Below, in pieces: positions 4,513 to 24,733 of a DNA stretch of 34,265 nucleotides. The DNA lies in IMG/VR virus record IMGVR_UViG_3300047297_000040, positions 1 to 34,265 of that record; one strand, written 5' to 3'. The position numbers and the translations under genes are program-made. Each line of letters starts with the position of its first letter. Position 1 is the first letter of the stretch. The DNA is from a virus. Under the pieces are notes generated by a model. That model saw nothing but the letters and a program-made list of their open reading frames with translations, had not been told where the DNA came from and did not search any database.

Positions 4513-4671
4513 ATGAACACTCAAGAACTAAGACGCAAAGCACGACAGCTTTACAACAACAAGCTAGTCCCTACAGAAGTCAACCAACACAATCAGCGAA
4601 AGTGGGTCAGATCAGTACTCAAGCTAGGTGACAAATGGTTGTTAGCAAAGCAAGTCTCAAGAATTCAATAA
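4513..4671 (+). CDS. Small basic hypothetical phage protein (52 aa)
   Basis: ATG at 4513, two bases after the stop of the membrane peptide, to TAA at 4669-4671. The product starts MNTQELRRKARQLYNN and has 'RKWVRSVLKLGDKWLLA' later. This arrangement is familiar from many small early phage proteins of unknown function. It is basic and helical. The overlapping longer frame in another phase (4446-4631) lacks a ribosome site and was not chosen. Confidence 0.65.
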   Translation: MNTQELRRKARQLYNNKLVPTEVNQHNQRKWVRSVLKLGDKWLLAKQVSRIQ

Positions 4672-4682
4672 GGAAGAATGAA

Positions 4683-5294
4683 ATGGTACATAAGAAGTTA
4701 ATGCAAGCAAGAATCGCCCTGCAAAACGCACCTCTCAAGAAGTCAGGCCACAATAAGTTTGCTGGCTATTCATACTTTGAGCTTGGCGACTTTATTCCCA
4801 CAATCAATGCAATCTTTAACGAGATTGGCCTGTGCGGTGTAGTGTCGTATGACGCTGAGATAGCCAGTCTTACAATCACAGATGTTGACGATGGCACTAA
4901 CATCATCATCACTAGCCCAATGGCTGACGCTAACCTAAAGGGTTGTCATCCTATCCAGAATCTTGGTGCAGTAGAAACCTACACAAGACGCTATCTGTGG
5001 GTAACAGCAATGGAGATTGTTGAGCATGATGCTCTGGATTCTTCTGCACCTACTAAAGAAGAAAAGGTCATCATCACCCCTACACAGGGTGCAACAGATA
5101 ACATTCCTCCAGAGGAAATGCAGTATTTGCAAGAGTTAGCAGTTGATCTAATTGCTATCTGTGAGCAAGAAGAACCTAAGACAGCTTGGGTGAAGTTGGA
5201 AGCTGAGAACCTAGACGATAGTCAAAAGATCGCTCTGTGGACTCTGCTTCCTAGTAAAGTAAGAAGCGCTTTAAAGAAAGCAAAGGAGTTATAA
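4683..5294 (+). CDS. erf: ERF-family single-strand annealing protein
   Basis: A 203-residue protein beginning MVHKKLMQARIALQ at 4683; AAGGAAG six to seven bases upstream supports this start over the earlier in-frame one. Diagnostic ERF features: 'KSGHNKFAGYSYFELGDFIPTINAIFNEIGL' (about residues 20-50) and 'GAVETYTRRYLWVTAMEIVEHDALD' (about 104-128), the 'Y-RRY' core of the family. ERF proteins anneal complementary ssDNA during recombination and genome circularisation (P22 Erf). An SSB-like protein follows directly. The C-terminal region is acidic and probably an interaction tail. Confidence 0.88.
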   Translation: MVHKKLMQARIALQNAPLKKSGHNKFAGYSYFELGDFIPTINAIFNEIGLCGVVSYDAEIASLTITDVDDGTNIIITSPMADANLKGCHPIQNLGAVETYTRRYLWVTAMEIVEHDALDSSAPTKEEKVIITPTQGATDNIPPEEMQYLQELAVDLIAICEQEEPKTAWVKLEAENLDDSQKIALWTLLPSKVRSALKKAKEL

Positions 5295-5546
5295 ATGGAA
5301 TACGACAATAACAATCGGGGTAGCCTTTTCAAGAACGACCGCAAGGACGATGCTAAGTTTCCTGATTACAAAGGCAGTATCAATGTAGATGGCACAGACT
5401 ACTGGCTATCTGCTTGGATTAAGGTCAGCAAGGATGGAAATAAATTCATGTCTTTGTCTGTCAAGAACAAGAACGCAGACGCTTCTTTGCAACCTAAGAA
5501 AAAGGTTAAGCAAGAAGAATTTGACGATTCAGATTTACCCTTCTGA
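5295..5546 (+). CDS. Putative ssDNA-binding (SSB-like) protein with acidic tail
   Basis: An 83-residue protein directly downstream of erf; AAAGGAG at the end of erf is its ribosome site. The body has a small beta-strand pattern ('DYKGSINVDGTDYWLSAWIKVSKDGNKFMSLSVK') typical of a reduced OB-like phage family, and the end is acidic and aromatic (EEFDDSDLPF), closely like the DDDIPF tip of bacterial SSB that recruits partner proteins. This supports a role in binding ssDNA together with ERF. No direct fold evidence can be given. Confidence 0.65.
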   Translation: MEYDNNNRGSLFKNDRKDDAKFPDYKGSINVDGTDYWLSAWIKVSKDGNKFMSLSVKNKNADASLQPKKKVKQEEFDDSDLPF

Positions 5547-5599
5547 TTTACGAGGCGAAAGCGGATGCTGAGAAGTTGGCGAAATCTAACAGTTGAATC

Positions 5600-5712
5600 G
5601 TGGGTATCGAATCCCGCCCAGACGCAGCGAGTAGCCTCACCAATTTAATGTTTACGGGCGGGAAAGCGGACAATTTTGTCGGACGAACGTTAGTACCGCC
5701 CACCCAAAGGAG
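5600..5712 (+). promoter_or_regulatory. Structured leader with alternative pairing arms (candidate RNA switch)
   Basis: The 173-base gap between the SSB-like and 5720 genes holds four complementary GC-rich segments: GTGGG (5600-5604), TCCCGCCC (5612-5619), GGGCGGGA (5656-5663) and ACCGCCCACCC (5695-5705). Segment 1 can pair with 2 or with CCCAC of 4; 2 pairs perfectly with 3 (8 bp); 3 pairs with 4 (GGGCGG/CCGCCC). A further hairpin GACAATTTTGTC lies at 5669-5680. Segment 4 directly abuts the ribosome site AAAGGAG (5706-5712). The layout is that of mutually exclusive hairpins controlling translation or readthrough. No known riboswitch class was recognised. Confidence 0.5.
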
Positions 5713-5719
5713 AAAAGTA

Positions 5720-6052
5720 ATGAGTTTAGATAAAGCATGGTTTGGCGGTGCAGTTGAGAAGTTCTTTGGCTCACCAGTATTTAAGTTACACAGAAAAGAT
5801 AGCCCTCAGACATCGATTGAGGCGGCTGAAGGTGTGGACACCAAGAAGCTAGAAAGTCTTGTCTATGAGGCTATAAAGGGCTTTCCTGATGGGTGTATCT
5901 CAGACGAGATACTAGAGATGTATCCAGACTATCCTTACTCCTCAATAACAGGGAGGTATCGTGCTTTGCTAGACAAAGGTTATATCGAGATTATTGGCGC
6001 TAGAGTAGGACGCTCTGGTAAAAAACAACGACTTATGAAAGCAATCAAATGA
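5720..6052 (+). CDS. Small winged-helix-like hypothetical protein
   Basis: A 110-residue protein starting MSLDKAWFGG at 5720, chosen because AAAGGAG precedes it by seven bases and the longer frame would start within the structured leader. The C-terminal ~70 residues ('LVYEAIKGFPDGCISDEILEMYPDYPYSSITGRYRALLDKGYIEIIGARVGRSGKKQRLM') have the helix-helix-recognition helix-wing order of phage winged-helix proteins. DNA binding is inferred. The stop overlaps the MazG-like start by ATGA. Its control by the leader is unusual for this compact operon. Confidence 0.65.
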   Translation: MSLDKAWFGGAVEKFFGSPVFKLHRKDSPQTSIEAAEGVDTKKLESLVYEAIKGFPDGCISDEILEMYPDYPYSSITGRYRALLDKGYIEIIGARVGRSGKKQRLMKAIK

Positions 6053-6357: not shown

Positions 6358-6493
6358 CAAGTAAGTAAAGACCCACATTCGAGAAGGCGTAGCCTGCGTA
6401 CACAATCGCCATGTGTGGGTTATCTTTCCATAGTTGTTCACCAGCTATGTAGGCGTATATTGCCCCTGTGAGGATAATTAGCCAAGCGCTCAA
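6350..6493 (-). CDS. Small two-span membrane protein (47 aa)
   Basis: Read from TTG at 6493-6491, overlapping the phosphoesterase stop (TTGA), to TAG at 6352-6350. The product (fMet-SAWLIILTGAIYAYIAG, then 'EQLWKDNPHMA', then 'IVYAGYAFSNVGLYLLAK') has two hydrophobic helices (about residues 4-17 and 29-46). The pattern 'GEQLW-NP-MA---AGYAFSNVGL' is one I recall from small phage membrane proteins. It is the last gene of the long minus-strand late/lysis unit. Function is unknown. Confidence 0.65.
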   Translation of the reverse strand: MSAWLIILTGAIYAYIAGEQLWKDNPHMAIVYAGYAFSNVGLYLLAK

Positions 6494-24441: not shown

Positions 24442-24493
24442 GTGTCATCTCAAAAATCGCCAGACACCTTCTGGACGGAGGTTAGGGTTTCCC

Positions 24494-24733
24494 CTAAAGA
24501 ATTTTCCACTTTTTCTCTTTGATTAAGGTTTCCGAGGCCAAGCCTTCTAGGTGTCCTGTAATCAATTCAATCGTCTTGATATGGCGGTAAGCATCTTCTC
24601 TTACACCAATATCAGAACTACTTGTGTTAATTATCACACTAATCTGCTCTTTTTTCAAATTATCTATGACTTCTTTGAAAAAGTCATCATTCAATAGGTT
24701 TTTAGCCCACTGAGCCTGTTGGTGTTTGTCCAT
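24494..24733 (-). CDS. Hypothetical head-region protein (79 aa)
   Basis: I take the ATG at 24733 (MDKHQQAQWAKNLLNDDFFKEV) inside the end of 24702-26300. The product is helical: 'KNLLNDDFFKEVIDNLKKEQI' and 'VREDAYRHIKTIELITGHLEGL'. The 'LLND-FF--V---L' followed by 'R-DAY--IKTIE-I--HLE' pattern recurs in small phage proteins between portal and scaffold. Function is unknown. Confidence 0.65.
   Translation of the reverse strand: MDKHQQAQWAKNLLNDDFFKEVIDNLKKEQISVIINTSSSDIGVREDAYRHIKTIELITGHLEGLASETLIKEKKWKIL

Follow-up and report, generated by a model that had tools for sequence, protein, structure and literature searches.

What fills the 173 nt that separate two co-directional genes at positions 5547–5719 of the window, the 34,265-nucleotide stretch of viral DNA analysed here? 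An earlier note on this DNA had described four GC-rich arms in the gap, and proposed that their mutually exclusive pairings form an RNA switch ending at a ribosome site. From comparison with related loci, I conclude that the gap holds two tandem, related modules of a widespread, structured phage RNA family that matches no Rfam family. The features concerned are the following.

4635–5294: ERF recombinase gene, upstream of the SSB gene
5295–5546, plus strand: upstream gene, phage single-strand DNA-binding protein (SSB), matching phrog_18154 and phrog_7364
5547–5719, plus strand: gap of 173 nt between two co-directional genes, with two tandem RNA modules inside
5552–5638, plus strand: module A, a type-A element (match to model R1, 61.4 bits; P1 and P4 covariation)
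5552–5556/5634–5638, plus strand: module A, helix P1
5557–5560 opposite 5629–5633, plus strand: module A, GAAA opposite GAGUA, loop-E-like
5561–5562/5627–5628, plus strand: module A, putative helix P2
5563–5565, plus strand: module A, GGA
5566–5568/5624–5626, plus strand: module A, putative helix P3
5569–5570/5619–5620, plus strand: module A, helix P4
5571–5618, plus strand: module A, variable insert (other elements have unrelated inserts here)
5621–5623, plus strand: module A, GAC
5639–5655, plus strand: linker between modules A and B (linkers are short in the 19 distinct A-then-B tandems)
5656–5701, plus strand: module B, a type-B element (match to model R2, 66 bits)
5656–5661/5696–5701, plus strand: module B, closing helix P1, corresponding to arms 3 and 4 of the earlier note
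5662–5665 opposite 5691–5695, plus strand: module B, GAAA opposite UAGUA
5666–5668/5688–5690, plus strand: module B, helix P2
5669–5680, plus strand: module B, P3 hairpin
5681–5687, plus strand: module B, GGACGAA bulge
5706–5712, plus strand: Shine-Dalgarno AAAGGAG of the downstream gene, read from the sequence, outside module B helix P1
5720–6052, plus strand: downstream gene, phrog_1123 family by phrog match

The element comes after the ERF and SSB genes of its own operon, and module A begins 5 nt past the stop codon of the SSB gene, whose product has the C-terminus DDSDLPF. The downstream gene has its ATG at 5720, and its product is probably a winged-helix/HTH protein, as judged from the character of its sequence. 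The gap had been called exceptional in a genome where genes otherwise overlap. The genes are indeed mostly packed, with a median co-directional spacing of 1 nt in my own choice of ORFs, but the statement is too strong, as several long gaps exist: by the same choice the 173-nt gap is the second largest, the other long spacings being 260, 136, 128, 124 and 109 nt. The longest (24442–24701, 260 nt by this choice) may be filled by a small ORF. No promoter-like or terminator-like site was found inside the gap, and promoter-like matches upstream of the element are no more numerous than expected by chance. Protein coding, either by a GTG ORF at 5600–6052 or by read-through from the SSB stop codon, was rejected, because the lengths of type-A elements vary freely modulo 3, being distributed over all three residues. 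A search for further copies elsewhere in the window returned chance-level matches only.

Relatives were gathered by protein searches with the ERF and phrog_1123 proteins, which gave 149 viral loci. Aligning the junctions behind their SSB genes showed that the gap is composed of recurring modules, labeled types A, B and C. Each module is an imperfect hairpin, closed by a variable but always paired helix P1 and a GAAA/AGUA loop-E-like joint; the inner part consists of short helices and conserved bulges. The bulges of type A are GGA and GAC, that of type B is GGACGAA. The general form of type A is P1-GAAAGCGGAUGC-insert-GACGCAGCGAGUA-P1', and module A reads GAGGC-GAAAGCGGAUGC-[variable insert]-GACGCAGCGAGUA-GCCUC. 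Type B follows P1-GAAA-GCG-hairpin-GGACGAA-CGU-NAGUA-P1', in module B GGGCGG-GAAA-GCG-hairpin-GGACGAA-CGU-UAGUA-CCGCCC, and type C resembles B but is longer and has an RGACGAR bulge. Model R1, trained on type A with no type-B sequence, matches module B with 21.1 bits (E = 3e-4), which shows that modules A and B are homologous. The 19 distinct tandems were collected with a pattern that specified the A-then-B order, and covariance-model searches found no B-then-A pair.

An exchangeable insert is a feature of type A. The insert type of the window was found only in four other loci (L088, L303, L100 and L039). Elsewhere, three groups of loci (L007/L037/L045/L107; L017/L034/L066/L110; L001/L027/L054/L085) each share the same or a very similar insert while their P1 helices and flanks differ, as if inserts had been exchanged between phages.

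Is the element a structured RNA? Folding energy is of little help for the gap as a whole, which folds no better than shuffled sequences (z = +0.36; 127 of 200 shuffles are as good), so that this test is uninformative; module B alone gives z = −1.6, and its minimum free energy fold is the covarying structure but for one extra pair. The real support for structure comes from covariation. For type A, 100 loci (89 distinct sequences) were collected with a pattern leaving P1 and P4 untouched. Double changes occur at every pair of P1 (five) and of P4 (four), with 174 double-changed cells against 64±5 in shuffles, and a covariation score of 0.381 against 0.123. The signal collapses when the partner is shifted by one position, and was found again in 40 sequences from another group of loci, for which protein homology was the main criterion. 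P2 and P3 hardly vary in the sample, and relaxed pattern scans turned up only a handful of changes on one side of a pair and, at the middle pair of P3, one A-U; these two helices therefore stay putative. Types B and C were aligned by the inner helix and by model fitting. Type B shows 63 double-changed cells against 13±3 in shuffles, with compensatory changes in 8 of 11 pairs among 14 sequences, and in 9 of 11 among 41 sequences whose alignment was fitted to the model.

The wobble pairs indicate which nucleic acid is folded. On the plus strand, 17 cells are G-U and 3 are A-C, a bias that indicates sense-strand RNA of the operon. Together with the covariation this shows both modules to be sense-strand RNA structure, on comparative grounds. 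That the structure forms instead in single-stranded DNA, as a replication or recombination site, would suit an element adjoining ssDNA-binding and annealing genes, but is very unlikely given the wobble counts, the GNRA- and UNCG-type loops found in many copies, and the orientation of the element, which is co-directional with the operon in most cases where the neighbours can be assigned.

No known class accounts for this RNA. Rfam 15, which includes riboswitches, ribozymes, GOLLD and ROOL, gave no match at gathering score in the window and none around the gap at E values up to 5, and in 19 related loci it returned only tRNAs. Rfam also has a model for the STAXI motif, and this too gave no match. 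A riboswitch or other known RNA class was set aside on these grounds, and the suggestion of a structured RNA of no catalogued class is borne out both by the missing Rfam match and by the compensatory changes in homologous phages. Exact core strings, searched in the open-access literature, retrieved only unrelated short strings; an earlier description outside open access is possible. A T-arm-like string had also been pointed out. It is present (GGGTATCGAATCCC), but ARAGORN found no gene with a tRNA cloverleaf or tmRNA fold in the window, and the string, seen only in the window's closest relatives, lies within the swappable insert. A tRNA or permuted tRNA was thus ruled out.

I then considered the proposed switch, in which arms 1-2 and 3-4 would pair in one state, and arms 2-3 and 1-4 in the other. 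The arms are where they had been placed (arm 1, 5600–5604, GTGGG; arm 2, 5612–5619, TCCCGCCC; arm 3, 5656–5663, GGGCGGGA; arm 4, 5695–5705, ACCGCCCACCC), and the described pairings are possible; in the window arms 2 and 3 match perfectly over 8 bp, and the last arm is directly followed by the Shine-Dalgarno sequence. Arm 1, most of arm 2 and the T-arm-like string fall in the module A insert, arms 1 and 2 forming a hairpin within it. Among the 19 distinct tandems, the pairing of arms 3 and 4 (module B P1) is kept in every one at 4–6 bp, whereas the 8-bp pairing of arms 2 and 3 occurs only in the window and two relatives (L088 and L303). In other tandems, the longest pairing between an A insert and a B arm spans 4–7 bp, mostly at the level expected from shuffling. 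In L100 and L039 arm 2 reads CCCACCC, a single base change that breaks the 2-3 pairing while improving the 1-2 pairing (U-G to U-A). The 2-3 pairing being confined to the window lineage, and broken in these two loci, the switch is not a conserved feature, and single-module loci lack the arms altogether. The perfect 8-bp match in three sequences speaks for the switch, but the tandem comparison has largely refuted it, and I consider it highly improbable. The homologous phages, to which the earlier note had looked for a check, thus preserve the element with its compensatory changes, but not the switch pairing. Moreover, module B P1 ends at 5701, 4 nt short of the Shine-Dalgarno sequence, which leaves the ribosome site free; no conserved alternative pairing sequestering this site was found among the tandems.

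How widespread is the element, and where does it sit? IMG/VR contains the type-A core in at least 120 stretches, whereas 84,980 genomes of bacteria and archaea yielded only 3, two of which bear titles of beta-proteobacterial assemblies. The core also occurs in two GenBank genomes of environmental phages (L344 and L349), and among named phage records the element was seen only in environmental genomes. Near-complete records of 31–36 kb have at most one site each, single or tandem. In about 109 of 135 cases, the distance from a stop codon to the beginning of P1 is 3–12 nt. A start codon preceded by a Shine-Dalgarno sequence was found in 93 cases, and in about 60 of these P1 ends 15–22 nt before it. 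The element shows a preference for junctions behind ssDNA-binding or annealing genes. These belong to functionally alike but unrelated families (SSB/PF00436 with phrog_44, phrog_18154, Enc34_ssDNA-bd and RecT), next to many unknown families, several of which have acidic SSB-like C-termini by eye. Downstream genes are mixed and unrelated, and include terminase small subunit, MazG, DNA polymerase and endonucleases. Nearly all of 114 SSB junctions have either a P1-closed hairpin (A, B, C or A+B) or, in 6 loci, a plain hairpin such as GGGGCUACGGCCCC; in the remaining inspected junctions an inserted gene comes first. The six loci (L010, L018, L022, L036, L050 and L139) have a plain stable hairpin, GGGGGCTTAGTCCCCC or GGGGCTACGGCCCC, in place of the element.

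Two features stay constant: a closing hairpin that takes up exactly the room between two ribosome sites and, in most copies, the conserved core. My tentative preference is for an intercistronic cis element on the polycistronic mRNA, acting in insulation, stability or processing, with a core perhaps bound by a trans factor. The RNA would form its structure immediately behind the ribosome that terminates on the ssDNA-binding gene, leaving both flanking ribosome sites free, and would allow the upstream and downstream genes to be set to different levels, either by blocking 3'-to-5' decay or by providing a fixed processing point; a trans factor, from host or phage, might bind the core. The boundary-element half of this proposal is suggested by the position and by the plain-hairpin replacements, while the trans-factor half comes from core conservation: the near-invariance of the type-A core suggests recognition by a host or phage factor. 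RNA families that covary this much around a near-invariant core usually prove to have a definite biochemical job. A plain stabilising hairpin has no need of a near-invariant 25-nt core, so that a specific partner, a ligand or catalysis is likely.

One set of loci argues against this preference. In loci with extra genes between the SSB and the phrog_1123-type gene, it is the latter that has the element beside it in 9 cases, with about five kinds of inserted gene, and SSB in 1 (L067). This favours a 5'-leader role, in which the element would regulate the downstream gene as a protein operator or ligand-binding RNA, the Shine-Dalgarno sequence not being sequestered by the proposed arms. P1 ending just upstream of that sequence agrees with a leader, and the T4 ssDNA-binding protein is known to autoregulate through RNA structures (PMC3014915). 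Against it, the downstream genes are unrelated across phages, there is no conserved alternative pairing, and the upstream binding proteins come from unrelated families, which makes a single shared RNA core unlikely as their common specific operator. I regard a leader as possible but doubtful.

Some copies, a minority, are found in extended non-coding stretches with tRNA genes nearby. Loci where the type-A core is found in such stretches, several of them beside tRNA genes, include L154, L151, L172, L173, L263, L218, L220, L353 and L341. These copies, like a conserved core set in internal loops with variable helices and inserts, are compatible with a small self-cleaving ribozyme or a nuclease-processed domain that would cut the operon RNA at the junction, and release tRNAs in arrays; theta ribozymes near tRNAs in gut phages (PMC10879173) offer a precedent. 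This appears unlikely, as no Rfam family matches, most of the A core is missing from types B and C, and a plain hairpin stands alone at some sites. A broader reading, to which I give limited credence, is a novel class of autonomous phage RNA domain, either catalytic or recognised by a host factor, in which inserts can be swapped. Phages would employ it as a movable module: by itself between genes, in A-B tandems, and inside long non-coding RNAs next to tRNA genes.

HK022 putRNA, a ∼70-nt two-hairpin RNA that suppresses termination (PMC9378689), raises the alternative of a cis-acting processive antitermination RNA. Like putRNA, whose bulges are functional, the element is a small, presumably cis-acting RNA of phage early-type recombination and replication operons, with one site per genome, sometimes with two tandem hairpins and sometimes before untranslated RNAs. 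No sequence relation to putRNA is apparent, and putL and putR are no more than about 270 nt from their promoters, whereas the window element comes behind two other genes of its operon. Only two short genes separate the gap from the convergent genes at 6490, so there would be little for antitermination to protect. I judge it quite unlikely.

Other systems are also close in kind, and, like putRNA, none fits. STAXI, presumed to be RNA, likewise consists of structured modules in tandem near single-stranded-DNA-binding protein genes, a location shared by the phage element, but each of its two or three repeats forms a pseudoknot with UUCG loops (Weinberg et al. 2010, PMC2864571), unlike the imperfect hairpins with a GAAA/AGUA joint and swappable inserts described here. 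The T4 gene 32 mRNA, a precedent for the proposed intercistronic role, has RNase E processing sites, one of them near its stop codon (PMC3014915); as would be the case here, a phage ssDNA-binding gene is controlled post-transcriptionally through RNA structure and through processing near that codon. The operator in T4, a pseudoknot, precedes the gene it regulates, whereas the phage element lies downstream of the ssDNA-binding gene and is common to unrelated binding-protein families. GOLLD and ROOL are structured phage RNAs, some near tRNA islands (PMC12286853), but are much larger, and neither matched in Rfam searches of the window or of the tRNA-near loci, where only tRNAs were found in those searched.

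The family is common in metagenomic phage contigs and tied to phage DNA replication and recombination genes. If the preferred intercistronic role were confirmed, it would mean that phage ssDNA-binding proteins are subject to a level of control so far unrecognised, and the modular inserts make the element easy to test.

Some further observations concern its surroundings. In nine loci (L241, L253, L207, L216, L247, L160, L156, L165 and L169) the next gene starts 7–11 nt after the element, with no visible Shine-Dalgarno sequence. Downstream of the element in L199 and L202 lies a further non-coding stretch, likely structured (GGTCATCTAATCATCAGG...CCTGATG...). A second recurring, structured-looking motif, ACGCATGRGGATTG...CAGTCCYCAGYCGTGTTGG, is found shortly before or after type-A elements (L154 at 1244, L178, L228, L218, L353, L164 and L359), and is possibly another unlisted phage RNA.
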